56,709 bases of DNA from a virus. Position 1 is the stretch's first letter. Each line of letters opens with the position of its first letter. Location of the stretch: positions 1-56,709 of IMG/VR virus record IMGVR_UViG_3300048009_000562. The stretch is one strand, 5' to 3'. Made by a program: the position numbers and the translations under genes. A model generated the notes under the pieces. The model was not told the origin of the DNA. It worked only from the letters and a program-made list of their open reading frames with translations, and did not search any database. Of the stretch, positions 36,482 through 48,400 are shown one piece after another.

Positions 36482-38440
36482 ATGGCTATACTAAAAAGTA
36501 CAATAATAAACGACACAGGGTATTTAAGTTTACCTACAGGAACAACTGCACAAAGATTATCAACGGTTGCAGGAACGCTTGTATACTTTACTAGTGTAGG
36601 TTCTACCCAATGGACTGTACCTGCTAACGTAGATAGTGTTGAAATATTAGTTGTAGGCGGCGGCGGAGGCGGCGGCTCGGATATGGGCGGTGGCGGCGGA
36701 GCCGGTGGTGTAATTTATGATGGTACATATCCGACAGTACCAGGTCAGGCTATAGATGTTACAGTAGGCGGAGGTGGCGTAGGTGCATCCGCAGGTGTAG
36801 GTCAAGCAAAAGGTAGCGGCGGCGGAGACTCACGTTTTGGAACTGCCATAGCATATGGTGGCGGTGGTGGTGCAAGTGCTCACGATAGATCAACTTCACC
36901 AGCAGGTGATGGAGCATCAGGTGGCGGAGCATCAGGTGGTGCTGTTCCTCCAAGTGGTGGCGCAAACACTGATATTAATAATAACGGACTTATCGGTAAC
37001 GGCGGTTATGGCGGCGGCTCAAGAGGTAGATCAATATATCCAGAACAAGGACACGATGGTTCATGGGGCTCAGGACATTGGTATCCAGGTGGAGGCGGCG
37101 GCGCTGGCGAACCAGGTAAGTCATATCCAAGACCACATGGTGGTAAAGGTGCAGAAATTAAAATCACTGGAGAAACTATTTTCTTTGGTGGAGGCGGAGG
37201 TGGCTCTGGCTACTCAAACACTGGCGGCGATGGCGGCTTAGGTGGCGGTGGTGGCGGTGCTGTTGGATCTGCTTTCGGCGGCGTAGGTTATAATAACGGC
37301 GCAGACGGCGGTGGTGGCGGAACAAGTACTTGGGCAAATACACCAGGCGGTAACGCAGGCGCAAACACCGGCGGAGGTGGTGGCGGTGGTGCTCACTACA
37401 ACTCTAATAACTACGGCGGTAACGGCGGATCAGGTATTGTAATTGTTAAGTATAACACTACTACAGCAACTCAAGAGACACTTCAAGGTGCGTTGAGAAT
37501 GAATGCAGATACTGGTAACGCAGAATTTTTTAGTTCAGATGCTACATGGCAAAGTTTAGCAATACCATTTAAAGAAAGAACACATATTACAACTAACTAC
37601 ATGTTAGGCGGATACAAAAGCTCAAGTGCATGGAATAATGTTAACAGAACATCTATATCAACAGACACAACAGTTAATTTAGGCGACAATTCATTAGAAC
37701 GTTCGTTTAACTATCAAGCAGGTGCATGTAGTAAAAACGTAGCATGGGTATTTGGTGCTGGTAACGGACACGTTGTTACATCTAATTATGTTATAGGATT
37801 TAACATGCGTACTGATCAACAGTACACAGGAACATTTGACAGAAACCTTAGCGGCGGCAAACTACGAGACGGTACTATTTGGAGAGAACACTACATGGCA
37901 TGGACGTCAGGTAGTTCAGAACTTGACAGATATAATATGCAGACTGAAACACAATCAACTGTAGGTATTGGAGCTCCAGCAGGATCAACAGCTGACGCAT
38001 GGGGAGCAAGTTGGGAAAACGAAGGAATGTTTACTAGAAACAATACTGGTACTTTCTTTGATATGATTACAGAAACATATGGTTCTTGGGGAGGAACATT
38101 CCCAAGTAATCATCACCAACAAAAAACACTACATAGTAAATTAAACTTTACTTGGGCAGGCAACGAAGGTAGTTATGCAGGCGGAGCAAACTTCCGCAGA
38201 ACAAGCTGGATTACTAGAACTACTTCAGGCACTTATGCTAAACCAGTAAACGGCGGTGAAGAAAACTTTACAATGGGACAAGACCATGGTTATCAATTAG
38301 GGTGCTTTAACGGTTCCCAAAATAATTTAAGTTTCCGATGGAATTACGTAACAGAAGCAGGCTTCCAAGGAGGAACATCTATGGAACCAAAAGGTAAGGC
38401 AGGTTCAAGTTCAGGACTAGGCGCATGGAGAGATAATTAA
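36482..38440 (+). CDS. Glycine-rich adhesin (652 aa)
   Basis: N-terminal module LKSTIINDTGYLSLPTGTTA like its neighbours, then a phage glycine-rich domain: WTVPANVDSVEILVVGGG leads into a tract of about 270 residues (about 60-325) dominated by Gly, with GGxGG repeats. Such tracts can pack as polyglycine-II helices at fibre tips, as in some T4-like adhesins. Residues about 345-652 form a second domain (THITTNYMLGGYKSSSAWNN, WVFGAGNGHVVTSN, GGEENFTMGQDHGYQLGCF) that is nearly all of the next protein. Likely receptor-binding. The stop overlaps the next ATG (TAATG). Confidence 0.75.
   Translation: MAILKSTIINDTGYLSLPTGTTAQRLSTVAGTLVYFTSVGSTQWTVPANVDSVEILVVGGGGGGGSDMGGGGGAGGVIYDGTYPTVPGQAIDVTVGGGGVGASAGVGQAKGSGGGDSRFGTAIAYGGGGGASAHDRSTSPAGDGASGGGASGGAVPPSGGANTDINNNGLIGNGGYGGGSRGRSIYPEQGHDGSWGSGHWYPGGGGGAGEPGKSYPRPHGGKGAEIKITGETIFFGGGGGGSGYSNTGGDGGLGGGGGGAVGSAFGGVGYNNGADGGGGGTSTWANTPGGNAGANTGGGGGGGAHYNSNNYGGNGGSGIVIVKYNTTTATQETLQGALRMNADTGNAEFFSSDATWQSLAIPFKERTHITTNYMLGGYKSSSAWNNVNRTSISTDTTVNLGDNSLERSFNYQAGACSKNVAWVFGAGNGHVVTSNYVIGFNMRTDQQYTGTFDRNLSGGKLRDGTIWREHYMAWTSGSSELDRYNMQTETQSTVGIGAPAGSTADAWGASWENEGMFTRNNTGTFFDMITETYGSWGGTFPSNHHQQKTLHSKLNFTWAGNEGSYAGGANFRRTSWITRTTSGTYAKPVNGGEENFTMGQDHGYQLGCFNGSQNNLSFRWNYVTEAGFQGGTSMEPKGKAGSSSGLGAWRDN
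36651..37440 (+). repeat. Glycine-codon-rich tract
   Basis: About 790 bases of mostly GGC/GGT/GGA codons, locally much richer in G than the surrounding AT-rich DNA. Codons are mixed, so it is a peptide-level repeat rather than a simple DNA repeat. Confidence 0.8.
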
Positions 38441-39468
38441 TGGCTAATTTAAAGAACACAAATATTGATGATACTGGACACTTAACATTACCTGGTGCAG
38501 GAGACGGCGCACACGAAGCAGGCGATATAAGATACAACGGTAACTTTGGTAGGGTAGAAATTTATCACGATAAAGATGGTGCTACGTGGACCAACATGGC
38601 TATACCTTTCCTTACTAGACAAATTGTAACAGTAGGGTATATACATGGCGGATATGCTTCAAGTGTTGTTTGGGACGAAACAAACAAGACATATTTTGCT
38701 ACAGATACTACAGTTGACTTATCAGGAAAACAAGAAAAGGGTCACAACTACAAAGACAGCATGCACAACACAAACTTGTGTTGGACTGTAGGCGGAGCTG
38801 CTAACGGTCACTGTGTAAGTTCAAATGGTATTACTTGTTACAATCATAGAACAGAAAATAACTTAACAAGTGGATACACTAGAACACACACTTGGAGTAC
38901 CAACAATATTGGTATTATCCAGCAAGGATTAGAAACAGCATGGATTACAGGTGGCGGCAGTAGTCAAATTAGACGTTTCAATATGATTACTCAAACACTT
39001 GGTTCACAATACGGAAACTCAAGTACATCAGGTGGTATTTGGGGACTACAACACGAAAATTACGGCATATGGACAAACAATAACCAAGCGTTTAAATGGG
39101 CAACAGAAACACCAGTTGCTCGTAGTGCAACAGCACCACAAGGCGACAAACATCAACACTGTTTAATGTTTAAGCATGCTAACATGTATGGCGGACGTGA
39201 AAGCAATCCAAGTTCAAACTGGAGAGAAACAAACTTTTACAACGATACAACCCAAGACGTTATTGGTTCAAAGAGTTATTATGGCGGCGAAGAAAACATG
39301 ATTGCAGGGCAAGATTGGGGTTATGCTATTGGTTGGTATCAAGGCTCACACGTTGTAAGTAGTGCTAAATTTACATACACTACTAGATCAAGTATTACAG
39401 GCGGCTCAAGTCTTAATGCTAAAGGAGTTAATGGACAAAGTTCAGCAACGATGTCTTGGAGGGATTAA
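38440..39468 (+). CDS. Adhesin, paralogue of the C-terminal domain of the glycine-rich adhesin (342 aa)
   Basis: 342 residues. N-terminal module LKNTNIDDTGHLTLPGAGDG, RYNGNFGRVEIY (1-50), then a domain parallel to residues 345-652 of the previous protein: VTVGYIHGGYASSVVWDETN, CWTVGGAANGHCVSSNGI, YYGGEENMIAGQDWGYAIGW, and a similar end (GGSSLNAKGVNGQSS versus GGTSMEPKGKAGSS). It lacks the glycine-rich tract. Likely a receptor-binding protein of the same fibre set; duplication followed by domain loss or gain is inferred. Confidence 0.7.
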   Translation: MANLKNTNIDDTGHLTLPGAGDGAHEAGDIRYNGNFGRVEIYHDKDGATWTNMAIPFLTRQIVTVGYIHGGYASSVVWDETNKTYFATDTTVDLSGKQEKGHNYKDSMHNTNLCWTVGGAANGHCVSSNGITCYNHRTENNLTSGYTRTHTWSTNNIGIIQQGLETAWITGGGSSQIRRFNMITQTLGSQYGNSSTSGGIWGLQHENYGIWTNNNQAFKWATETPVARSATAPQGDKHQHCLMFKHANMYGGRESNPSSNWRETNFYNDTTQDVIGSKSYYGGEENMIAGQDWGYAIGWYQGSHVVSSAKFTYTTRSSITGGSSLNAKGVNGQSSATMSWRD

Positions 39469-39507: not shown

Positions 39508-40374
39508 ATGACAAATGATGTACAAAATGTCGATCGTAGAAAGCAGTACATGTCTGATCACAGATATGAAAGTTCTGTCAATACAGACACTTCAATGCTT
39601 AACGAACGCGAAAAGGGTGCAATTAGTTATGCAATTAACAAAGAATGGACCAACCCTAAGTACAAGCTAAGATGGTTTGTAGGTCAAGCTCAAATTACAC
39701 CGTATAGTAAATTAAGACAGTATCTATTAGAAATTAAATCTAAAGAAGAATCAATTGAAAACATAGAGTACGAAATTGCAAAGTATGACGTAGAAGTCAG
39801 ACGTTTCAAACGTATGGCCGAAGAAGCACATGACGAATTAGATAGAGAACTTGCAAGTGTCGAAGCATGGAATTCAGAACGTAATCATATTATGTCAAAA
39901 CGTAGATTGCAAGATTGGTATTTAGAAAGACAACACTTATTAGATCTCTTAGAAGAATTTTTAGAAAGCGAAGAAGCATTAGTACCAGACGGAAGTGGAC
40001 GTACTTTTATGGATATTCTTAATACTGACGAAGAAGATATTTACGAAGCACAGTATTGGACTAATAGACTTGCTAAACAAGCAGCAACAGACATGATTTT
40101 TTATGGACGTATTGGTACAGGTAACATGGATGCTATCCTAAGCACTGGACCTGAACAACAAGCAGATATCCTAGCATTAACAATGGACTATAGCACAAAA
40201 TTACAAAGTTACAACTTGCAATTACAAAGTGCTGCAGAAGAAAATTTAAGATTACAGGGCAAAGTTGATACTAAAGAGTTACTAGCACCGATAGATAAAT
40301 ACAGTAAGACAGAAAACCCAACACCAACAAACGGAGGCTCTGAGGAGACAATAAATGACATATATAATGTTTGA
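39508..40374 (+). CDS. Coiled-coil protein of unknown function (288 aa)
   Basis: 288 residues. Residues about 70-170 form a long charged helix (IENIEYEIAKYDVEVRRFKR, LEEFLESEEALV) suggesting a coiled coil. YEAQYWTNRLAKQAATDMIF and YGRIGTGNMDAILS follow. No enzyme motif, signal peptide or membrane segment. It sits between the adhesins and a terminator with AAGGAG before the ATG. It may be a fibre-assembly chaperone or tail protein, but I do not recognise a family. Confidence 0.6.
   Translation: MTNDVQNVDRRKQYMSDHRYESSVNTDTSMLNEREKGAISYAINKEWTNPKYKLRWFVGQAQITPYSKLRQYLLEIKSKEESIENIEYEIAKYDVEVRRFKRMAEEAHDELDRELASVEAWNSERNHIMSKRRLQDWYLERQHLLDLLEEFLESEEALVPDGSGRTFMDILNTDEEDIYEAQYWTNRLAKQAATDMIFYGRIGTGNMDAILSTGPEQQADILALTMDYSTKLQSYNLQLQSAAEENLRLQGKVDTKELLAPIDKYSKTENPTPTNGGSEETINDIYNV
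40294..40301 (+). promoter_or_regulatory. Possible internal late promoter (GATAAATA)
   Basis: GATAAATAC inside the coiled-coil gene, 53 bases before the ATG at 40355, a usual late-promoter distance. It is within coding sequence, so chance occurrence is possible. Confidence 0.3.
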
Positions 40375-40891
40375 AACAGTACCTAGTAATGATCCTAGGC
40401 TAGTTCCTGAAATTGATATAATAGGAAATGACTGGCACTTTAGTTTTGCTAGAGTAACAGGCACTCCTCAAATTGATTGGCTAAAACCTACGACTATTAC
40501 AGAAGATATGTTTCATGCACGTATGTTTACTAATGCTCTAAACGGGGAAGTTGCTATTATGCGTAGTACAACTAATCCTGCAGATATCCTTCAGCCAACT
40601 AGTTTTGGTGATAATGATTACGAAAAAGTTGCATATAGATTAACTTCAATTGACGAAGCAAACACTGTAGCACTATTAAAAGCACAAATGCTCAATTGGG
40701 CAGAAAATAATTTTGATAACGATGGCGGCCTAGTGCAAATTAGAGCTCAAGTTCCAGGGTTAGCAAGATTAGAAGAAACTCAAACATATATGGCAACATA
40801 TTTTGAATGGGATTGTGCTTTTACAGCAAATACAGAAAAAACTCCACAATTTGCAACAACAAAGTTTACACAAACACTTTATCCGGAATAA
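40355..40891 (+). CDS. Unknown protein (178 aa)
   Basis: 178 residues, starting MTYIMFETVPSNDPRLVPE; FSFARVTGTPQIDWLKPTTI and AIMRSTTNPADILQPTSFGD follow, and TYFEWDCAFTANTEKT near the end. No recognised domain. It overlaps the preceding gene by 20 bases with GAGGAG upstream, and is the last gene before a terminator. It may act with the preceding coiled-coil protein; no function is inferred. Confidence 0.6.
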   Translation: MTYIMFETVPSNDPRLVPEIDIIGNDWHFSFARVTGTPQIDWLKPTTITEDMFHARMFTNALNGEVAIMRSTTNPADILQPTSFGDNDYEKVAYRLTSIDEANTVALLKAQMLNWAENNFDNDGGLVQIRAQVPGLARLEETQTYMATYFEWDCAFTANTEKTPQFATTKFTQTLYPE

Positions 40892-40908: not shown

Positions 40909-40950
40909 AAAAAGGTGCTATACTAAGTATACAGTATAGTGCCTTTTTTT
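40909..40950 (+). terminator. Intrinsic terminator closing the fibre operon
   Basis: Sixteen-base arms AAAAAGGTGCTATACT (40909-40924) and AGTATAGTGCCTTTTT (40933-40948), with two G-T pairs, loop AAGTATAC, and T run to 40950. The flanking As and Ts could let it work in both directions. Confidence 0.9.
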
Positions 40951-40964
40951 ATGGAAGAGAATGA

Positions 40965-42677
40965 ATGAGAAAAATTTTTAGTATTCCTCTAAATCCTAAG
41001 TTATCAAACGAACAATATATAGAGTTTGTTAATTTTATTAGAGAGTACAAGGATCACATCAAAGACGTATATTTTACATGTAGAATTGCTCCATTTGCAC
41101 AAGATGCAATGGGCGATATCTTTGTAGAAGATGACGATTATAAGTTAGCAATTGAGCAAGCATTGTTTGTGCAACAGCAAACAGGCGTACCAGTGAGTGC
41201 TACATTTAATAATATACAAGTACCACCTAGTCAAAAAAACTTAGATACATTTATTAAAAACTTTAAGCCTGTTTACGATGCAGGTGTACGTATTGCAACT
41301 ATTCCGCATACACATTGGATGGCAACAGGACAAATTCAAAAAGCATTTCCTGAATTATACATAAAAAATACTATATTACGAGATGTTAGAGTAGCATCAG
41401 AAATTGTAAGTTTAGCAAAGTACGGATTTGATTATATTAACCTTGATAGAGATCTTATGCGTGATAGAGACACGTTGAAAAGATTACTTGAAGCAAAGGT
41501 TTGGATTAAAGAAAATTATGGCAAAGACATACACTATAGTTTGTTAGCAAACGAAGGATGTAAAGGCAACTGTCCAATGATGGTTGAACACTTTGAATAC
41601 AATAATACTAGAGCAGGTCGAGAACCACAATATTTCAATAATCCTATTAGTAGAGTAAGTTGTCCTAAGTGGGATGTTGATGATCCAAGTATACATTTAA
41701 AGACAGCTAATATTACTCCTTGGAGAGAAGACTGGGAAGAATATTTAGATGAGCTAGGTATTGATGTTTTTAAAATGCACGGTCGTGAAGCTGTAAGCAG
41801 ACTATATGAAACAATGAATATTGTAAAACGTTGGGCTTCAGGGGAACCGCTACTGTATGATAACTTTGAAAAATACTTAGTAAGTACAAATTTAAAAGAT
41901 AGACCAATTGATGCATGGCGTAAAAAAATTAAAAATTGTAAATTTGATTGTTGGGAATGTCATTTTTGCGATGATATTTACAAAGTTAAATCTAAAATTG
42001 AACACACAAATAAAGTAAAACACGTAGCAGAAAGTATATTGATAAGCGGTGTTCCAACTGTAAACACACGTATACCTGGATTAACAAGTCCTAGAGTACA
42101 AACAGTATTAAATCATATTGCTAGTGGATCTAAACATTATATGGAAGTAGGTGTAGCACAAGGAGCAACATTCTGTGGAGCAATTAAAGACAATAACTTA
42201 AATGCTGTAGCGATTGACAACTGGCAAGAAAACATACAACCTGCTGATCCAAATGTTCCTAAGTTACCAAATAATGAAAAACAAAACTTTTTAAATAATT
42301 TAGAATCGTATAAGAAAGACAACACTGTTGATGTAATTAATAATGATTTATTTGAAGCTGATGTATCACAATACAACGGTAAAATAGACATGTGGTTTTA
42401 TGACGGACCTCATGATGCAACAAGTACTGAGCAAGCTATACTTCACTACAAAAATGTATTCGCTAAAGAAGCTGTTTTAATATTTGATGATGCAAATTGG
42501 GATGGTGTTGTTGAAGGTGCAAGAAACGGCATTAACAAAGCAGGCTTTGAAGTTGCATATGAAAAAATGTTATTATGTGATGTAGAAGATATAGAAAGCT
42601 GGTGGAACGGGTTATATATTATTGTACTTGCTAAACCTGAAGAAGAATTAATATCAATAGAGGAAGTAGAATGGTAA
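40965..42677 (+). CDS. Two-domain protein: U32-like Cys-rich barrel fused to class I methyltransferase
   Basis: 570 residues. N-terminal part (about 1-350) is barrel-like: VPVSATFNNIQVPP, YGFDYINLDRDLMRDRDTL, then LLANEGCKGNCPMM. This order, with NEGCxxxCP, resembles the U32 peptidase/UbiU-UbiV/RlhA family, whose members hold a 4Fe-4S cluster in hydroxylation of ubiquinone precursors or RNA. Cysteines occur at 39, 199, 203, 233 and in CxxxCxxCxxC at 325-335. The C-terminal part (about 370-560) is a SAM methyltransferase: HYMEVGVAQGATFCGAI (motif I), AVAIDNW, IDMWFYDGPHD, AVLIFDDANW (Methyltransf_24 type). First gene of the modification cassette; it overlaps the halogenase gene by 7 bases. The methyltransferase call is firm, U32 is tentative, substrate unknown. 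Confidence 0.65.
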   Translation: MRKIFSIPLNPKLSNEQYIEFVNFIREYKDHIKDVYFTCRIAPFAQDAMGDIFVEDDDYKLAIEQALFVQQQTGVPVSATFNNIQVPPSQKNLDTFIKNFKPVYDAGVRIATIPHTHWMATGQIQKAFPELYIKNTILRDVRVASEIVSLAKYGFDYINLDRDLMRDRDTLKRLLEAKVWIKENYGKDIHYSLLANEGCKGNCPMMVEHFEYNNTRAGREPQYFNNPISRVSCPKWDVDDPSIHLKTANITPWREDWEEYLDELGIDVFKMHGREAVSRLYETMNIVKRWASGEPLLYDNFEKYLVSTNLKDRPIDAWRKKIKNCKFDCWECHFCDDIYKVKSKIEHTNKVKHVAESILISGVPTVNTRIPGLTSPRVQTVLNHIASGSKHYMEVGVAQGATFCGAIKDNNLNAVAIDNWQENIQPADPNVPKLPNNEKQNFLNNLESYKKDNTVDVINNDLFEADVSQYNGKIDMWFYDGPHDATSTEQAILHYKNVFAKEAVLIFDDANWDGVVEGARNGINKAGFEVAYEKMLLCDVEDIESWWNGLYIIVLAKPEEELISIEEVEW

Positions 42678-44179
42678 GAAAGATAGTTATATTTGGTGGT
42701 GGCACAAGTGGTTGGCTTACAGCTGCTTACTTGACTAATAATTTAACAGAGCCTGTTGAAATACAATTAATTGAAGATGCATCAAAAGGACCAATTGGTG
42801 TAGGAGAAGGCACACAACCTCTTACAGCTTCATTCCTTTACAAGTGTGGCATTACTGCAAAAGACTGGATGAAGCCTAGTAATGCTTCTTTTAAATATGG
42901 TGTAGAACTTACAGGTTGGAATGATGAACCTTATTTTGTTGACAATGACACTGTCAACAATGTTGTTCCAGCACCGCATATTCCTGTAAGCAAATACTTT
43001 ATAGACAAACCGTATTCAGAATTTGCAAAATGGCATCCTGCTTATAGATTAGCAAAAAGTAACACAGCAACAAAATTAGATAGCGAAATTGATGTAAACT
43101 TTAATGTTGGTTTAGATAGTTACGGTGCTGTACATTTTAGTGCGTACGATATTATCGATACAATCAAGAAACTTATACTAGATAGAATTAACTATGTTGA
43201 TACAAAAATTGTACAAGTTGGTACTGATGTTAGCGGTATTACAAAACTAATAGATGCTGATGGTAAAGAATATGCAGGTGATTTGTATATTGACTGTAGT
43301 GGATTTCAATCAATTTTATTAGGCAAAACTTTAAAAGAAGATTTTATTAGTTACAATAAATGGTTACTAAACGACAGTGCTGTTGCTATGCCAACACAAT
43401 ATACTAATCCAGAAGAAGAATGTTTTCCTTATACTAAAGCAACTACTATGAATGCTGGATGGCGTTGGACTATTCCTACGTATCATCGTGTTGGTAATGG
43501 ATATGTTTATAGTTCTAAACACATCACACCAGAAGAAGCAGAAGCAGAACTACGTGAATCAATTGGCGAGTATGATGCACCAGCAAACCATTTAAAAATG
43601 CGTATAGGATCTTATAAAAATATTGCTGTAAAAAATGTTGTAGGCGTTGGCTTAGCGGCAGGCTTTATAGAACCATTAGAAGCCACAGGTATAACTTTTA
43701 CTACAGCATTAGTAACATCATTAACTGAATTATTAAATCTTTCAGGTAACCAATGGACTGAGCAACCGCAAGCAATGATTAATAGAGGTTTTTACGAAAT
43801 GAACGTAGAAATACTTACTTTTATTTTTGCACACTATTATTTTAGTACTAGAAACGACACACCTTACTGGCAAGATGTGCGTAAACAACGTATTGAAGAC
43901 TTGCCAGATGATGCTAGAATGATTCTAAGTCAATATTATCCATATCCTAAGGATTTTATATTTTTTAGTCCTAACAGTATGTTTAATAGTGTCCAATGGT
44001 GGTCGATGTTACATGCTGGCGGCGCTTACCCAAATGCAAGATGTGATTTAACAGACGAACAAAAAAAGTATATTGAACACTTTATGAAAGTACAAGATGT
44101 AAGAGTTGATAGTTCTAAAGAGCTATTTGGCAATCACTATGAATTTCTAAAGAAATGGTACAAAGAATGGCAAGAGTAA
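42671..44179 (+). CDS. Flavin-dependent tryptophan-halogenase-family protein
   Basis: 502 residues with the full motif set of FADH2-dependent halogenases: FAD-binding GGGTSGW (9-15), GVGEGT (43-48), catalytic Lys75 in ASFKYGV (counterpart of PrnA Lys79), the halogenase signature WxWxIP as WRWTIP (264-269), and EPLEATG with Glu337 (counterpart of PrnA Glu346). The family forms hypohalous acid from halide and a flavin hydroperoxide and halogenates aromatic substrates, free or carrier-bound. A flavin-dependent halogenase from cyanophage Syn10 (VirX1) has been characterised, so phage members exist. The substrate here is unknown; a flavin reductase is not present in the window and the host may supply it. 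It overlaps the genes on both sides. Confidence 0.9.
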   Translation: MVRKIVIFGGGTSGWLTAAYLTNNLTEPVEIQLIEDASKGPIGVGEGTQPLTASFLYKCGITAKDWMKPSNASFKYGVELTGWNDEPYFVDNDTVNNVVPAPHIPVSKYFIDKPYSEFAKWHPAYRLAKSNTATKLDSEIDVNFNVGLDSYGAVHFSAYDIIDTIKKLILDRINYVDTKIVQVGTDVSGITKLIDADGKEYAGDLYIDCSGFQSILLGKTLKEDFISYNKWLLNDSAVAMPTQYTNPEEECFPYTKATTMNAGWRWTIPTYHRVGNGYVYSSKHITPEEAEAELRESIGEYDAPANHLKMRIGSYKNIAVKNVVGVGLAAGFIEPLEATGITFTTALVTSLTELLNLSGNQWTEQPQAMINRGFYEMNVEILTFIFAHYYFSTRNDTPYWQDVRKQRIEDLPDDARMILSQYYPYPKDFIFFSPNSMFNSVQWWSMLHAGGAYPNARCDLTDEQKKYIEHFMKVQDVRVDSSKELFGNHYEFLKKWYKEWQE

Positions 44180-44742
44180 ATTTATTTAGATCAGATTTTT
44201 TTGTTAGTAGAGTAGGTAATGAAGATCAAATTACTAATCTAAAACAACAAATGCTAGTAGCACAAGAAAATAATGTTGACAAAATTGCAAACAGCAATGA
44301 CCGTTGTTGGCGTAGTACTGTTAAGTATGACGGCATTGATTGGTTATTAGACGGTGTAAAGACACTTGCAGAAGAAGCAATAGATTACTATAGTAATTTA
44401 GATAGTACATTTAAAGAACATATAGTAGAGAGACATATTAACTTAGATTACTGGTCAAATATTAACAAGCCTGCAAGTAAAAATGTTTTGCATAGTCATG
44501 TAGCAGATAGTTTTGCCGCTGTGTATTATATACAAGGCACAAAAACAGGACCATTAAAATTTATAAATCCAGCAAATGTCTTAAATGATTGTAATACAAT
44601 TAGTCCGTTTGTACGTGAAGTTTTAGTACACCCCCACGACGGTGAGCTAATATTATGGCCTGCTTGGGTTCCGCATGAAGTAGAAGTAAACCAATCAGAT
44701 AGAGATAGAATGAATGTCGCATTTACATTACAGGTAACATGA
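44155..44742 (+). CDS. 2-oxoglutarate/Fe(II)-dependent oxygenase-like protein
   Basis: 195 residues of the phage 2OG-Fe(II) oxygenase type (2OG-FeII_Oxy_5/TIGR02466-like). Candidate iron ligands lie in VLHSHVADSFAAVYYI and WPAWVPHEVEV, and the 2OG-binding Arg in DRDRMNVAFTLQV; GELILWPAW is the typical strand before the last His. Such enzymes hydroxylate or otherwise oxidise small molecules, peptides or proteins. It overlaps the halogenase gene by 25 bases (or 13 if the second ATG at 44167 is used), and the next gene by 4. Substrate unknown; tight linkage with the halogenase suggests the same pathway. Confidence 0.75.
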   Translation: MVQRMARVNLFRSDFFVSRVGNEDQITNLKQQMLVAQENNVDKIANSNDRCWRSTVKYDGIDWLLDGVKTLAEEAIDYYSNLDSTFKEHIVERHINLDYWSNINKPASKNVLHSHVADSFAAVYYIQGTKTGPLKFINPANVLNDCNTISPFVREVLVHPHDGELILWPAWVPHEVEVNQSDRDRMNVAFTLQVT

Positions 44743-45479
44743 TGTTTAAGAAAAAAGATAAAATAGAATTTTTTAGTAAGATTGACGGAGTTGCAGAAGC
44801 ATATCCTATTATTCCTGCTAAAGATTTTAGACCTAAATGGATGTCTCGTTGTAAACAAAATTATGTAGATACTAAGGATAGAAACTTACCTAGTCACTTG
44901 TATCAGTGTCCTGGTATTTTTGATTTATACAATCACGGATTTATATTGCCTTTATGGCACGATGTTATTATTAAAACACAAGCAGGACAACAAGGGTTTC
45001 AGTATATAACTCCAAGCGAAACATTATCAAAATTATACGAAGGGGATACTGTAACTAGTCAACCGCCTGATGTAACTAAATGGATACCTAAGAGACCGCA
45101 TAGTATAGAAGCTATTGTAAAATTAAACACACCTTGGCATATAGTTACACCAAAAAATGTTAAGTTGTTAATTACGCCTGTTGCATACAGCGACCGCTAC
45201 GAGTTTGAATCTACAATTGGAGTATTAGACCCTGCAATTAATACTGAATTAAATATACAAGGGTATTGGAATATACCAAACGGAGAACGTAAACTTACAG
45301 CAGGTACACCGATTGCACATATTATTCCACTTACGGAAGAAAAATACGAACATGTTATTAGAGATATGACCGAAGCAGATTGGAGATTTTTTAAGAAGAG
45401 AATTTTTTGGAAAACACATTCTTTCAATCATAACAATTCGTTACTTAAACGTATGTATAAAAAGCACTTTAGGAGATAA
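44739..45479 (+). CDS. Unknown protein, paralogue A of a pair (246 aa)
   Basis: 246 residues starting MMFKKKDKIEFFSKIDGVAE. Recognisable order: AYPIIPAKDFRPKW, LYQCPGIFDLYNHGFILPLW, LNTPWHIVTPKNVKLLITPV, LTAGTPIAHIIPL. The gene at 45885 encodes the same series (IMPIVPAGKIKFNW, IARCPGIHKIMREGWVIRSW, VQSPWLVYVPKGYYLMSMPI, IPAGTPLAQYVLV), so the two are paralogues. Predicted mixed alpha/beta with a beta-rich, cupin-like second half; I think of the DUF6065 type but cannot verify. Conserved CPG and GTP(I/L)A motifs. Start overlaps the oxygenase stop (ATGATG). Function unknown. Confidence 0.65.
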   Translation: MMFKKKDKIEFFSKIDGVAEAYPIIPAKDFRPKWMSRCKQNYVDTKDRNLPSHLYQCPGIFDLYNHGFILPLWHDVIIKTQAGQQGFQYITPSETLSKLYEGDTVTSQPPDVTKWIPKRPHSIEAIVKLNTPWHIVTPKNVKLLITPVAYSDRYEFESTIGVLDPAINTELNIQGYWNIPNGERKLTAGTPIAHIIPLTEEKYEHVIRDMTEADWRFFKKRIFWKTHSFNHNNSLLKRMYKKHFRR

Positions 45480-45481
45480 CA

Positions 45482-45892
45482 ATGCCACTTACAGAATATC
45501 ATACAGATGAGTTTATAACTTATACACAGACTTTAAGAGAAGCAAAAGACCAATATACAGCACGTAAAGTGCAAAAAGACAGAGTAAAACATGTAGGTTG
45601 GTTCAATGCTGTATTATCACAAAAAGATATTATAATTACTTTTAAAGGCAAAGACACAACTTACATACAAGTAGTTGCAAGTAAACACGGGGATGAAATT
45701 TTACCAGAACCGCCTATTACTGTAGAAGATGTATTAGGCGAGGATGAAGAACAAATACAGCACATTGTATTTTATTCAAAGCCTGATGGCAAAATTCATG
45801 TAGTGCATATAGATGATGTATTATGCTGGTCTGTAACTAACTCTATGATGAATCAAATAGACACACTTTACAAAGGCAAGGTTCGTGTTTAA
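45482..45892 (+). CDS. Unknown small protein of the modification cassette (136 aa)
   Basis: 136 residues, charged, with FITYTQTLREAKDQYTARK, the strand-rich DIIITFKGKDTTYIQVVASK and IQHIVFYSKPDGKIHVVHID. No recognised family, no signal peptide. It lies 2 bases after paralogue A with GGAGATAAC as ribosome site, and overlaps paralogue B by 8 bases, i.e. between the two paralogues. Possibly a partner of them. Confidence 0.6.
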   Translation: MPLTEYHTDEFITYTQTLREAKDQYTARKVQKDRVKHVGWFNAVLSQKDIIITFKGKDTTYIQVVASKHGDEILPEPPITVEDVLGEDEEQIQHIVFYSKPDGKIHVVHIDDVLCWSVTNSMMNQIDTLYKGKVRV

Positions 45893-46643
45893 TTGGTTTA
45901 AGAAAAAACCTAAAATAGAGTTTGTATCTTTATTTCCAGAGATAACTCAAATTATGCCGATTGTTCCTGCTGGTAAAATAAAATTCAACTGGACTAAATC
46001 AGCAATTGAAGATTGGAAAACACAGCAAAAAAATACACAAAATTCTAAACTTACTCATATTGCACGATGCCCTGGTATACACAAAATTATGCGAGAAGGC
46101 TGGGTAATTCGTAGTTGGTGTGATTTTAATATAGAAACAAACGGCGATGGCGTATCTTATAAATGGGCAATGCCCGTAAGTCAAAGCACAATGGATGCCG
46201 ATCATATTTGGAAATGGGATTATATTTCACATCATTCAGAATCTATTTTTGGACAAACTAATAAAAAGAATACTTTAGATACAGTAATTAAAGTACAATC
46301 GCCATGGTTAGTTTATGTTCCTAAAGGATATTATTTAATGAGTATGCCTATTGCATATCCAGACAATCATAGTTTTACAGCTGCAACAGGTCTTATAGAC
46401 GGAGACGAAGGTCCTAATTTTTTAAATGTCCAATTATACTGGCACGAATTAAATAGTAATACAACAATTCCTGCAGGCACACCGTTAGCACAATATGTTT
46501 TAGTAAAAAAAGAAAAAATTGATTCTAATGTAAGATCTGTAGAGGATAAAGACATTAAAAATTTACGTTTAAGATCGACTATATTAGATAATCGTTTTAT
46601 TGTAGATTACAAACCGTTAAAGGAAGTAAAGTGGCATGAGTAG
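45885..46643 (+). CDS. Unknown protein, paralogue B of a pair (252 aa), GTG start
   Basis: 252 residues starting at GTG (MFNWFKKKPKIEFVSLFPE), parallel along its length to the protein at 44739 but diverged. Conserved CPGIHKI, SPWLVYVPKG and GTPLAQYV. The GTG is supported by alignment with paralogue A (both begin F-x-KK-x-KIEF) and by an upstream AAGG. It overlaps both neighbours by 8 bases. Function unknown. Confidence 0.65.
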   Translation: MFNWFKKKPKIEFVSLFPEITQIMPIVPAGKIKFNWTKSAIEDWKTQQKNTQNSKLTHIARCPGIHKIMREGWVIRSWCDFNIETNGDGVSYKWAMPVSQSTMDADHIWKWDYISHHSESIFGQTNKKNTLDTVIKVQSPWLVYVPKGYYLMSMPIAYPDNHSFTAATGLIDGDEGPNFLNVQLYWHELNSNTTIPAGTPLAQYVLVKKEKIDSNVRSVEDKDIKNLRLRSTILDNRFIVDYKPLKEVKWHE

Positions 46644-46860
46644 TTTTCATAAAGTAGAAATTAGTTTGTATGCAAATAAAGATACTAAAACAGCAAATGA
46701 TGCACATGCAAATTGGCTTAATTATTCTGTACAACATAGGCGCATGGCCGGCTTTAGAATTGTAATAAGTCACTGTAAACAGTTCGTAACAATGAATGAC
46801 GAAGAAGCATTTAATTATTTTTTAGATACCTGGAAACATTACAAGCGAGTTATATACTAA
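46636..46860 (+). CDS. Unknown small protein (74 aa)
   Basis: 74 residues: VEISLYANKDTKTANDAHAN, then WLNYSVQHRRMAGFRIVISH. One alpha/beta unit; no recognised family. It overlaps the previous gene by 8 bases and is the last gene of the cassette before the late promoter at 46867. No terminator is seen between this gene and the next operon. Confidence 0.55.
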   Translation: MSSFHKVEISLYANKDTKTANDAHANWLNYSVQHRRMAGFRIVISHCKQFVTMNDEEAFNYFLDTWKHYKRVIY

Positions 46861-46866
46861 ACTTCA

Positions 46867-46874
46867 GATAAATA
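46867..46874 (+). promoter_or_regulatory. Late promoter (GATAAATA) of the protease/cupredoxin operon
   Basis: GATAAATACTACT in the 37-base gap before the ATG at 46898, nearly the same extended sequence as the promoters at 6124 and 14660. Confidence 0.7.
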
Positions 46875-46897
46875 CTACTGTAGATTAGGATTATAAT

Positions 46898-48400
46898 ATG
46901 GCATCAAATACAGCACCAGTAGTAGATAGAATACGCATTATACCAAGACCTGACGATTTCTTAGATCGTAATGTAGGGTCAAGTGGTGAAGTCTTCTTTG
47001 ACAAGCAAGCAAACACCTTAAGAGTTTATAGCGGAAAACTAGCTGGAGGTTATTCTGTTGTTACTGAAAACAATTTAGCAAGGAATATTGCTAATGCTAA
47101 AGTTGCAACAGTAAACTATGCTGTTAGTGTTACATCAGCACAAGGTGACGATGTTGGTAACAAATATGTCCTTAATGGAGTTTACAAACCAGATCTAAAC
47201 CTTGTTATAGGTTACACATATGTATTTGATCAAACAGATTTAACAAACGTTCATTATCCAAATCCTAATGGTGGCGGACTTAACCAACATCAACTTGCAT
47301 TTTCAACTTCGCCTAACGGTGAGTTAGATCCAGGAGAAACAGCATATGAGGATAATGTAAGATATTACATAAATGATGATCCTGTAACAAGAGCTGTGTA
47401 TTACGACAGATTTAATGAAGCAATAACCCGCCAAGTACAAATTACAATTACAACAGACACGCCTACTACACTTTATTACTGGTGTAAAAATCATACCGGC
47501 ATGGGCGGATCAATTACTGTTGCTGAGCCCGGAACAGGTAGCGGATCAGGCGGTGCAAATGTAGAAGTATCAGACACAGCACCAAATGAACCAACACAAG
47601 GCACTATTTGGTTCGACAGTACTAATGGTAGAATATTTGTATACGTAGCAGACGAAGATAGTAGTCAGTGGGTACAACCTACAGTGCCATTGCCAGCGGT
47701 TAACACATTTAAAAATATTAATGTTGTTGACGGACTAGGGTTTTCTGCAAGTGGCAACAACGATACATTAAACTTTAAAGAAGGGTCTAACATCACTATA
47801 GATGTTAACACAATTACAAATACTTTAACTATTAACAGTTCAGGCGGAGGCGCCGGCGGTGGCTCCTACGATCAGAGCCTTAACACTACCGATGATGTAA
47901 CATTTGATGATTTAACAGCAACATCACTAACAGCAGATACTATAAATGCTACATCAATACAGAATACAGGAATAGGCGCTCCGACATTTACTAGTGCCAG
48001 CACAATATCGTTTAATGCCGCAGACGGTATTAATATAGAAAACATTTTACTAACAAATGAAGTTATCTCAAGATATGACTCCCCAAGTGATACTGTTAGT
48101 ATTAGTTACGACACTGGCCCAGTTTACTATCTTACAAATTTAACAGTTCCTACTAGTTTATCGATTAGTAATGTTCCTGAAACAGATGATAGAGCAAATA
48201 ACATAGCGGTAGTAGTAGATCAAACTAGTACTCCGCAAACATTACAATTCTTAAGCATTAATGGCAGTCAGGTGACAATCGACTGGTTAGACGGAACTTC
48301 CCCAGCTGGTGTAGCACTTAAAAAACAAGTGTTTTCTTTAAGTTTGTTGAAAGTAGCAGGTCTATGGATGGCGTTTGGTAGCTCAGCAGCTTATGGATAA
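46898..48400 (+). CDS. Virion-type protein with cupredoxin-like domain (500 aa)
   Basis: N-terminal module GSSGEVFFDKQANTLRVYSG (about 27-46) resembles the short fibre modules elsewhere here. A cupredoxin-like domain follows (about 85-215): YTYVFDQTDL, His131 (NQHQLAFS), and YYWCKNHTGMGG with Cys196, His199 and Met202, the complete type-1 copper ligand pattern in the short CxxHxxM loop of amicyanins. Then a Gly/Ser linker and a second YxxW module (GTIWFDSTNGRIFVYVADED), and a beta-rich C-terminus (about 265-500) with fibre-like VTFDDLTATSLTADTINATS. First gene of a late operon with a propeller protein and a protease. Copper binding is inferred from ligands only. Confidence 0.7.
   Translation: MASNTAPVVDRIRIIPRPDDFLDRNVGSSGEVFFDKQANTLRVYSGKLAGGYSVVTENNLARNIANAKVATVNYAVSVTSAQGDDVGNKYVLNGVYKPDLNLVIGYTYVFDQTDLTNVHYPNPNGGGLNQHQLAFSTSPNGELDPGETAYEDNVRYYINDDPVTRAVYYDRFNEAITRQVQITITTDTPTTLYYWCKNHTGMGGSITVAEPGTGSGSGGANVEVSDTAPNEPTQGTIWFDSTNGRIFVYVADEDSSQWVQPTVPLPAVNTFKNINVVDGLGFSASGNNDTLNFKEGSNITIDVNTITNTLTINSSGGGAGGGSYDQSLNTTDDVTFDDLTATSLTADTINATSIQNTGIGAPTFTSASTISFNAADGINIENILLTNEVISRYDSPSDTVSISYDTGPVYYLTNLTVPTSLSISNVPETDDRANNIAVVVDQTSTPQTLQFLSINGSQVTIDWLDGTSPAGVALKKQVFSLSLLKVAGLWMAFGSSAAYG

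Follow-up and report, generated by a model that had tools for sequence, protein, structure and literature searches.

A recurrent halogenase gene cassette beside phage fibre genes

A gene for a predicted flavin-dependent halogenase, on a fragment of the genome of a large uncultured T4-like phage that is nearest to jumbo phages by its capsid protein, belongs to a set of seven genes that very probably forms one functional unit. The seven genes (40965-46860, + strand) lie within the fibre region of the window, by which we mean the whole 56,709-nt stretch of DNA analysed, and their grouping is not due to chance. Our leading, if tentative, reading is of a mobile and probably late-expressed tailoring module, attached to the fibre operon and acting on a fibre or adhesin of the virion. 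Although known for years, phage halogenases have had no biological role assigned to them, and the published suggestions have been called speculative. If virion proteins were halogenated, phages would have a means of changing their receptor-binding surfaces, of which we found no report in the literature, and the enzymes would offer a source for late-stage protein halogenation.

Organization of the cassette and its boundaries

The sequence-only reading had described seven tightly packed genes, and all seven reading frames are indeed open (Table 1), with spacings between neighbours of -7, -25, -4, +2, -8 and -8 bases, such that the genes overlap except at the single gap of +2. The terminator it had placed upstream of the cassette also holds up, as a stem of 16 pairs spanning about 40909-40948 (-18.7 kcal/mol, z = -4.5, with none of the shuffles as good). 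A consensus terminator scanner makes no call on the 40909-40950 stem, probably because the T-run is drawn into the stem. Given this terminator, the cassette need not share a transcript with the fibre genes upstream. The late promoter proposed at the right end, GATAAATACTA, is plausible in that its core sits shortly 5' of a late gene, but the motif count is not above chance; the exact core ATAAATACTA is present in three copies in the window (6125, 14661 and 46868), each shortly 5' of a late gene. A search for structured RNAs and tRNAs found none. We considered and rejected an anti-phage defence reading of the cassette, since PADLOC models gave no match to any of its seven proteins.

Table 1. 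Coordinates of the cassette genes and of neighbouring features in the window
Feature	Position	Strand	Assignment	Basis or remark
ADH	38440..39468	+	Adhesin/fibre-like, phrog_1417	phrog_1417 at 2.8e-25; candidate substrate
F288	39508..40374	+	Fibre-region protein, phrog_1409	Almost always near MT
F178	40355..40891	+	Small conserved fibre-region protein	Lies between F288 and MT
Terminator	40909..40950	+	Intrinsic terminator	Between fibre genes and cassette; 16-pair stem
MT	40965..42677	+	N-terminal (beta-alpha)8 barrel + SAM methyltransferase domain (predicted), phrog_1458	PF13578, AF2, Foldseek
HAL	42671..44179	+	Flavin-dependent halogenase (predicted)	PF04820, PDB halogenase matches, invariant catalytic residues
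OXY	44155..44742	+	Putative 2OG-Fe oxygenase family, phrog_81	PF13759 5.8e-14
D1	44739..45479	+	dUTPase/dCTP-deaminase fold (predicted), phrog_7084	2.8e-39
S136	45482..45892	+	Conserved small protein	No family; conserved along length
D2	45885..46643	+	Second dUTPase-fold paralogue (predicted), phrog_7084	1.8e-48
S74	46636..46860	+	Conserved small protein	No family; conserved in alignment
Late promoter	46867..46877	+	Putative T4-type late promoter	Motif match; precedes next fibre gene

Predicted functions of the cassette proteins

By family and motifs HAL is a flavin-dependent (tryptophan-type) halogenase, for which halogenating activity is predicted. The PF04820 domain (1.2e-94; 318 bits against a cut-off of 21) spans most of the protein, and the features that had led to its description as intact are all kept: GxGxxG, Lys75, Glu337 and WxWxIP, which reads GWRWTIP, with no variation at K75, E337 or the glycines. 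Both catalytic residues, Lys and Glu, are kept in 58/58 phage representatives versus 35/40 bacterial ones, and the HAL tree separates phage and bacterial halogenases almost fully. The phage enzymes form three deep clades, one of which contains VirX1, and all three are found near D-family genes. No flavin reductase was recognised among the seven cassette genes by Pfam, PHROG or NCBIfam; a host reductase could serve HAL.

The proposal that OXY is an Fe/2OG oxygenase stands at the level of family, with a PF13759 score of 52.7 bits against a cut-off of 27, but the metal site has the form HxH...H...R (H113, H115, H174 and R185 being conserved) and not the canonical HxD...H. This pattern is seen in the OXY of the window and in most of 195 relatives, and the distant structure 3bvc also has HxH. 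Because it replaces the canonical HxD/E...H triad, 2OG dependence of OXY is not established.

MT had been read as a methyltransferase fusion, in keeping with which PF13578 is matched at residues 394-509. The domain at its N-terminus, which no Pfam or NCBIfam model recognises, is an eight-stranded barrel in the AF2 prediction (pLDDT 88.7), and since seven Cys of the barrel are invariant in the family alignment (C199, C203, C233, C325, C329, C332 and C335) it likely carries a metal site. Foldseek matches MT to SAM methyltransferases and to the U32 peptidase 5d88, one of the best solved matches (rank 7, 3.9 A over 250 columns of the barrel), and other barrels match too. MT may resemble the peptidase U32-type barrels in its predicted eight strands and clustered invariant Cys, but differs in its fusion to a SAM methyltransferase, and PF01136 (peptidase U32) is absent among the matches listed for the 49 members of the MT family. 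No MT was found in plasmids.

D1 and D2 both match phrog_7084, confirming that they are paralogues; the D tree identifies D1 as the orthologue of the D that adjoins HAL in the wider MT-HAL family, and confines D2 to the window's own phage group (a clade of seven rows). The suggestion that the pair act as carriers is unsupported given their predicted dUTPase fold. D2 was modelled by AF2 with a pLDDT of 84.7, and the best 50 Foldseek matches of the D model in the PDB are all dUTPases or dCTP deaminases (top E 1.5e-3, with modest TM-scores), so that on these models the family fold is dUTPase/dCTP-deaminase-like. D appears distantly related to DUF6065 (PF19541), whose members share this predicted fold; neither D1 nor D2 has a Pfam match to DUF6065, the only D homologue with one being haloviral (6.8e-07, above cut-off). 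The neighbourhoods of classical bacterial DUF6065 genes gave no HAL or OXY model matches, and these genes are therefore uninformative as to function. No D was found in plasmids, a D profile matched just 2 times across 369 genomes from a single class, that of G022, and a pattern scan of bacterial genomes gave no confirmed case of D. The diverse D alignment was too divergent to support pattern searches.

The fold invites the idea that D is a divergent dUTPase/dCTP-deaminase-type enzyme within a module that modifies bases or nucleotides. A motif-3-like stretch (GxxD, AGTPLxQ) aligns with dUTPases by profile and contains the invariant G169 and D172, the latter a motif-3-like Asp; a halovirus has its D gene close to thymidylate synthase, and S-CREM1 annotates its own D as a triphosphate nucleotidohydrolase. 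We consider the idea quite improbable nonetheless: neither dUTPase motif 2 (PRSS) nor the glycine-rich C-terminal motif 5 is evident in the D alignment, no base-modification enzyme was recognised in the cassette by Pfam or PHROG, and the cassette lies among late fibre genes, a setting unlike the early one usual for precursor-modifying enzymes. Even less probable, to the point of being remote, is that D serves in the virion or its assembly and has no part in the chemistry, being found near HAL because both adjoin fibre genes. One large-phage lineage does have D without HAL, close to genes resembling fibre genes and to one predicted to be glycosyltransferase-like, but a bacterial D homologue has a 2OG oxygenase and a TPR-sulfotransferase as neighbours, in a locus where phage structural genes were not seen, and the conserved pocket-like residues C62, K136, P140, W141, G169 and D172 suggest ligand binding.

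S136 and S74 belong to no Pfam, PHROG or NCBIfam family; a PDB profile search gave no convincing match for S136 and none for S74. Both are conserved over their whole length, with no carrier-protein or leader-core pattern, and the proposal that they are carriers is unsupported. A carrier-protein or RiPP-type tailoring cluster would have a carrier protein or precursor peptide among its small genes, and neither S136 nor S74 has a carrier motif or a variable core.

Co-occurrence and distribution of the genes

The order ADH, F288, F178, MT, HAL, OXY, D recurs in dozens of uncultured phage contigs; the chain, with its overlapping genes, is conserved among 127 non-redundant loci, the adjacency of ADH and F288 being recurrent, and shuffled or expanded versions are present in cyanophages and other large phages. 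Among loci retrieved with MT, HAL is accompanied by OXY in 44/45 and by D in 37/45 (Fisher p 2e-7, ignoring kinship of the loci), and HAL and OXY are both present in 57 of the 80 loci retrieved with D. The three deep HAL clades have different gene orders (MT-HAL-OXY-D; HAL-HAL-D-OXY; and D-OXY-(x)-OXY-HAL-HAL-HAL), and the D and HAL trees have broadly parallel splits. The position beside adhesin genes is conserved. In cyanophages the cluster sits between tail-fibre and neck genes, and a JmjC_2/Cupin_8 protein, of a class that includes known protein hydroxylases, is encoded in 30 of 36 such loci. Syn9, Syn10, P-TIM40 and S-RIM44 are cultured cyanophages that have both HAL and D. Location alone is weak evidence, since the fibre-to-neck interval gathers accessory genes.

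Could the genes then be independent accessories, hitchhiking in a permissive fibre-side hotspot with no joint pathway? MT occurs without other cassette genes in about 21/71 loci; in S-B64, S-PM2 and S-H38, HAL lacks D and is distant from the fibre genes; and D is present but HAL absent in one large-phage lineage, haloarchaeal viruses, Sf-CH8 and bacteria. Several OXY types are common in these phages, and the retrieved loci are related to one another, which inflates the co-occurrence counts. Nevertheless we regard such a pile-up as improbable, because tight overlaps and repeated adjacency are seen in three differing contexts and three deep HAL clades, and loci that have lost genes still pair HAL with OXY (44/45). 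The earlier proposal that the genes act together is thus upheld in part: ordered co-occurrence is far beyond chance, the adhesin-side site is conserved and the VirX1 gene lies in a version of the cassette, but some of the genes do occur independently in relatives. As MT is often alone and HAL can lack D, the modules are separable, and the functional unit is better supported than a single substrate; that the enzymes share one substrate, and that this is a virion protein, we infer.

Candidate targets and relationship to known systems

We consider a fibre or adhesin of the virion a likelier target than a host metabolite, although a virion protein in this role must be put forward tentatively. The cassette operon would be translated together, late in infection, with a host reductase supplying FADH2 to HAL. 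HAL would make hypohalous acid that passes to Lys75, with Glu337 helping to activate the aromatic substrate that is then halogenated; OXY may hydroxylate, and MT methylate, the same or neighbouring groups. D could bind the substrate or a nucleotide-like cofactor and so give the module its target, the most likely candidate being an adhesin or fibre protein that is rich in aromatic residues and whose gene lies just upstream, and the chemistry would alter or protect the receptor-binding surface of the virion. ADH is high in Trp (3.5%) and His (4.1%). Loci that carry HAL and loci that lack it show no significant difference in how much Trp the upstream adhesin contains (p = 0.11); with HAL, Tyr is lower, His higher (p = 0.013) and Pro lower (p = 0.003), kinship of the loci being ignored in these comparisons. 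In other marine phages, tail fibres are among the virion proteins that are methylated (PMC13288928). The broader proposition, that large T4-like phages halogenate, hydroxylate and methylate their own fibre or adhesin proteins by means of a dedicated, mobile cassette, with D providing target specificity, and that this is also the native role of VirX1, we hold to be rather doubtful.

A small-molecule pathway, in which the enzymes tailor a host or phage-directed secondary metabolite with a protective role for the infected cell or its envelope and D handles a nucleotide-like or activated intermediate, is possible but somewhat unlikely. Its product might, for instance, be a halogenated derivative of an aromatic amino acid or of a sugar. 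By PDB comparison HAL has kin among the free-tryptophan halogenases, and in vitro VirX1 accepts many free aromatics for halogenation (PMC8407142). A 2021 survey proposes halogenated metabolites or polysaccharide decoration for a different cyanophage cluster (PMC7824862), reviews propose host-metabolite or antibiotic roles (PMC10452541, PMC2984593), and bacterial HAL loci often include large ORFs and JmjC/cupin proteins (JmjC in 18/79 loci). Against this, no NRPS, PKS, amino-acid ligase or transporter was recognised in the cassette by Pfam, PHROG or NCBIfam, the position among virion genes is conserved, and we found no native VirX1 substrate reported in the literature.

Several known systems resemble parts of the cassette. 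Bacterial tryptophan-halogenase clusters (Sphingomonas, Caulobacter, Colwellia and others) have halogenases in tandem, in some cases beside JmjC/Cupin_8 or DUF6445 proteins, but unlike the cassette these HAL loci have neither MT nor D. The cluster of cyanophage S-SSM6a groups 2OG oxygenases, cupin-like proteins and a methylase with its halogenase, but the account of it centres on carbamoyltransferases and HAD phosphatases, which are absent from the cassette, and the passage concerned mentions neither the D family nor the MT barrel fusion (PMC7824862). As for the dUTPase/dCTP deaminase families and DUF6065, the predicted fold is common to D, but D1 and D2 have neither a DUF6065 match nor evident motifs 2 and 5.

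Among the closest counterparts is VirX1 of cyanophage Syn10 (PDB 6qgm), an active, iodinating halogenase (PMC8407142). It is of the same family as HAL (E 7.9e-58), with intact Lys and Glu, and its gene has fibre genes as neighbours and a D homologue directly downstream. The two differ in that HAL is in another deep clade, accompanied by MT and two D paralogues, and in that VirX1 is a cyanophage enzyme whereas the phage encoding HAL has a jumbo-like capsid protein. Through this comparison the phage halogenases, VirX1 included, gain a recurrent partner in the D family, a recurrent genomic place, and cultured phages in which to search for a substrate.

Setting of the cassette

The 56.7 kb virus record derives from a T4-like myophage, with genes for portal, protease, scaffold and capsid in its left part and fibre genes together with further large structural genes from ~8 to 53 kb. 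The nearest relatives of its capsid protein (67-70%) are those of jumbo phages of 349-469 kb, e.g. Vibrio phage 2.275.O and Serratia phage BF. All seven cassette reading frames proposed by the sequence-only reading are open at their coordinates, neighbours overlapping or almost so, and the claimed upstream terminator is present and strong; of the claimed late promoter, the T4-type motif downstream is there, but by count such motifs are not enriched. The fibre-like protein following the cassette contains YYWCKNHTGMGG, resembling a type-1 copper (cupredoxin) ligand motif; such stretches seem common in structural proteins of cyanophages.

Coordinates of cassette genes and of other features discussed
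Feature	Location	Position
MT, barrel and SAM methyltransferase fusion	window	40965..42677
HAL, halogenase	window	42671..44179
OXY, oxygenase-family protein	window	44155..44742
D1	window	44739..45479
D2	window	45885..46643
T4-type late motif	window	46867
Fibre-like protein	window	46898-48400
syn9 gp46-gp54	L003	10619-16079
D homologue, Synechococcus phage Sf-CH8	L311	4959-5753
D homologue and flanks, Alteromonas genome G022	L301	6872-9877

Predicted activities of the cassette proteins

HAL is a flavin-dependent halogenase, complete in length, and Lys75 and Glu337, previously described as intact, are kept by all 58 phage representatives but by 35 of 40 from bacteria, a pattern that speaks for selection on halogenation itself. 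MT is, as had been suggested, a fusion, of a SAM methyltransferase domain with a predicted barrel in which seven cysteines never vary; in structure searches it matched methyltransferases and, through the barrel, a U32 peptidase along with other barrels. OXY belongs to PF13759, in keeping with its assignment as an Fe/2OG oxygenase, and membership of this family makes 2-oxoglutarate-dependent hydroxylation likely; because its conserved site is HxH...H...R, that activity is not certain. Judged from their families, HAL would convert reduced flavin, oxygen and halide to hypohalous acid, OXY would catalyse an iron-dependent oxidation, and MT would use SAM.

D1 and D2 are indeed paralogues, both in phrog_7084; D1 is the orthologue of D in the wider MT-HAL group, and D2 is confined to the window's relatives. 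A PDB search with the family profile returned dUTPases only (including dUTPase-like Wsv112), every match weak, and the first 50 structure matches of an AF2 model of D2 (pLDDT 84.7) are all dUTPases or dCTP deaminases, with modest TM-scores; against a viral library, uncharacterised phage proteins rank first and dUTPases after. A haloviral D homologue matches DUF6065. With its motif-3-type Asp retained but no evident motif 2 or 5, D resembles a nucleotide-type pocket turned to another use, not an ordinary dUTPase.

Linkage and separability

Loci were collected with HAL, D2, the small cassette protein S136, a cyanophage D alignment and MT as queries. Among 71 MT loci long enough to judge, 37 contain HAL and D, eight HAL without D, five D without HAL and 21 neither (Fisher p = 2e-7 for co-occurrence, kinship ignored), OXY accompanies HAL in 44 of 45, and HAL and OXY are both present in 57 of 80 D loci; both sets are best-scoring matches only, relatives included, and percentages are not population estimates. 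More telling than these counts are three deep HAL clades with identical partners in three differing arrangements. The chain adhesin, F288 and F178 (fibre-region genes), MT, HAL, OXY and D recurs with genes overlapping.

HAL also occurs without the remaining cassette genes (S-B64, S-PM2, S-H38), or with oxygenases and no D within the stretch examined (P-SSM2, S-WAM1, Syn1, P-RSM6, Sf-CH11, HTVC008M), and D occurs without HAL; the module is thus assembled from separable parts. The joint action proposed earlier is favoured by recurrent linkage and weakened by independent occurrence.

Several D loci have other neighbours. In Sf-CH8, the genes around D are for photosynthesis and phosphate, and none in that stretch is annotated as a halogenase; the bacterial homologue, from Alteromonas, is flanked by a 2OG oxygenase and a TPR-sulfotransferase. 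One lineage without HAL (L095, L084, L124) has near D, by eye, genes like 2-keto-3-deoxy-octulosonate phosphate synthase and UV-damage endonuclease and a pyruvoyl-tetrahydropterin synthase homologue; L095 and L084 add a glycosyltransferase-like gene with no Pfam match. A 27.9 kb contig (L085, IMGVR_UViG_3300027759_000349) packs five halogenase and two D genes into <28 kb.

CPUG_00131 of cyanophage Syn10 matches the VirX1 structure sequence over its whole length (1271 bits), and its gene has a second halogenase on one side and a D gene on the other, with fibre genes adjoining. Iodide is the preferred halide of VirX1, and many aromatics serve as its substrates (PMC8407142). Genes that follow in the syn9 version encode, among others, OXY-type proteins, a JmjC_2/Cupin_8 protein (gp49 by Pfam) and a DUF6445 protein (gp52); database names within gp46-gp54 (minor coat protein, DNA endonuclease V, ferrochelatase) are unsupported by Pfam where tested. 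JmjC-type proteins occur in 30 of 36 phage loci of the syn9 kind and 18 of 79 bacterial halogenase loci.

Candidate target and relation to known systems

Because the genes are linked, HAL, OXY and MT may share one substrate. The main alternative to a virion protein is a metabolite, a role already proposed in the literature for a cyanophage cluster that is related to this one but distinct (PMC7824862). We favour a virion protein, since adhesin and fibre genes are the conserved surroundings and since protein hydroxylases occur in the JmjC class. Virion proteins are methylated in other marine phages, which points the same way (PMC13288928).

A literature search found no paper mentioning DUF6065, and the only one found combining halogenase, dUTPase and phage ties, in its available part, no dUTPase-fold protein to a halogenase. 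No cultured example of the MT-HAL-OXY-D cassette was seen; among isolates, MT was found in cyanophages only, and the MT neighbourhood of P-HM2, the one examined from an isolate, lacks a halogenase. Phage halogenases and cyanophage halogenase-oxygenase clusters are already known; the D-family fold and its linkage to HAL, the placing of VirX1 within that linkage, and the MT-HAL-OXY-D cassette are new.
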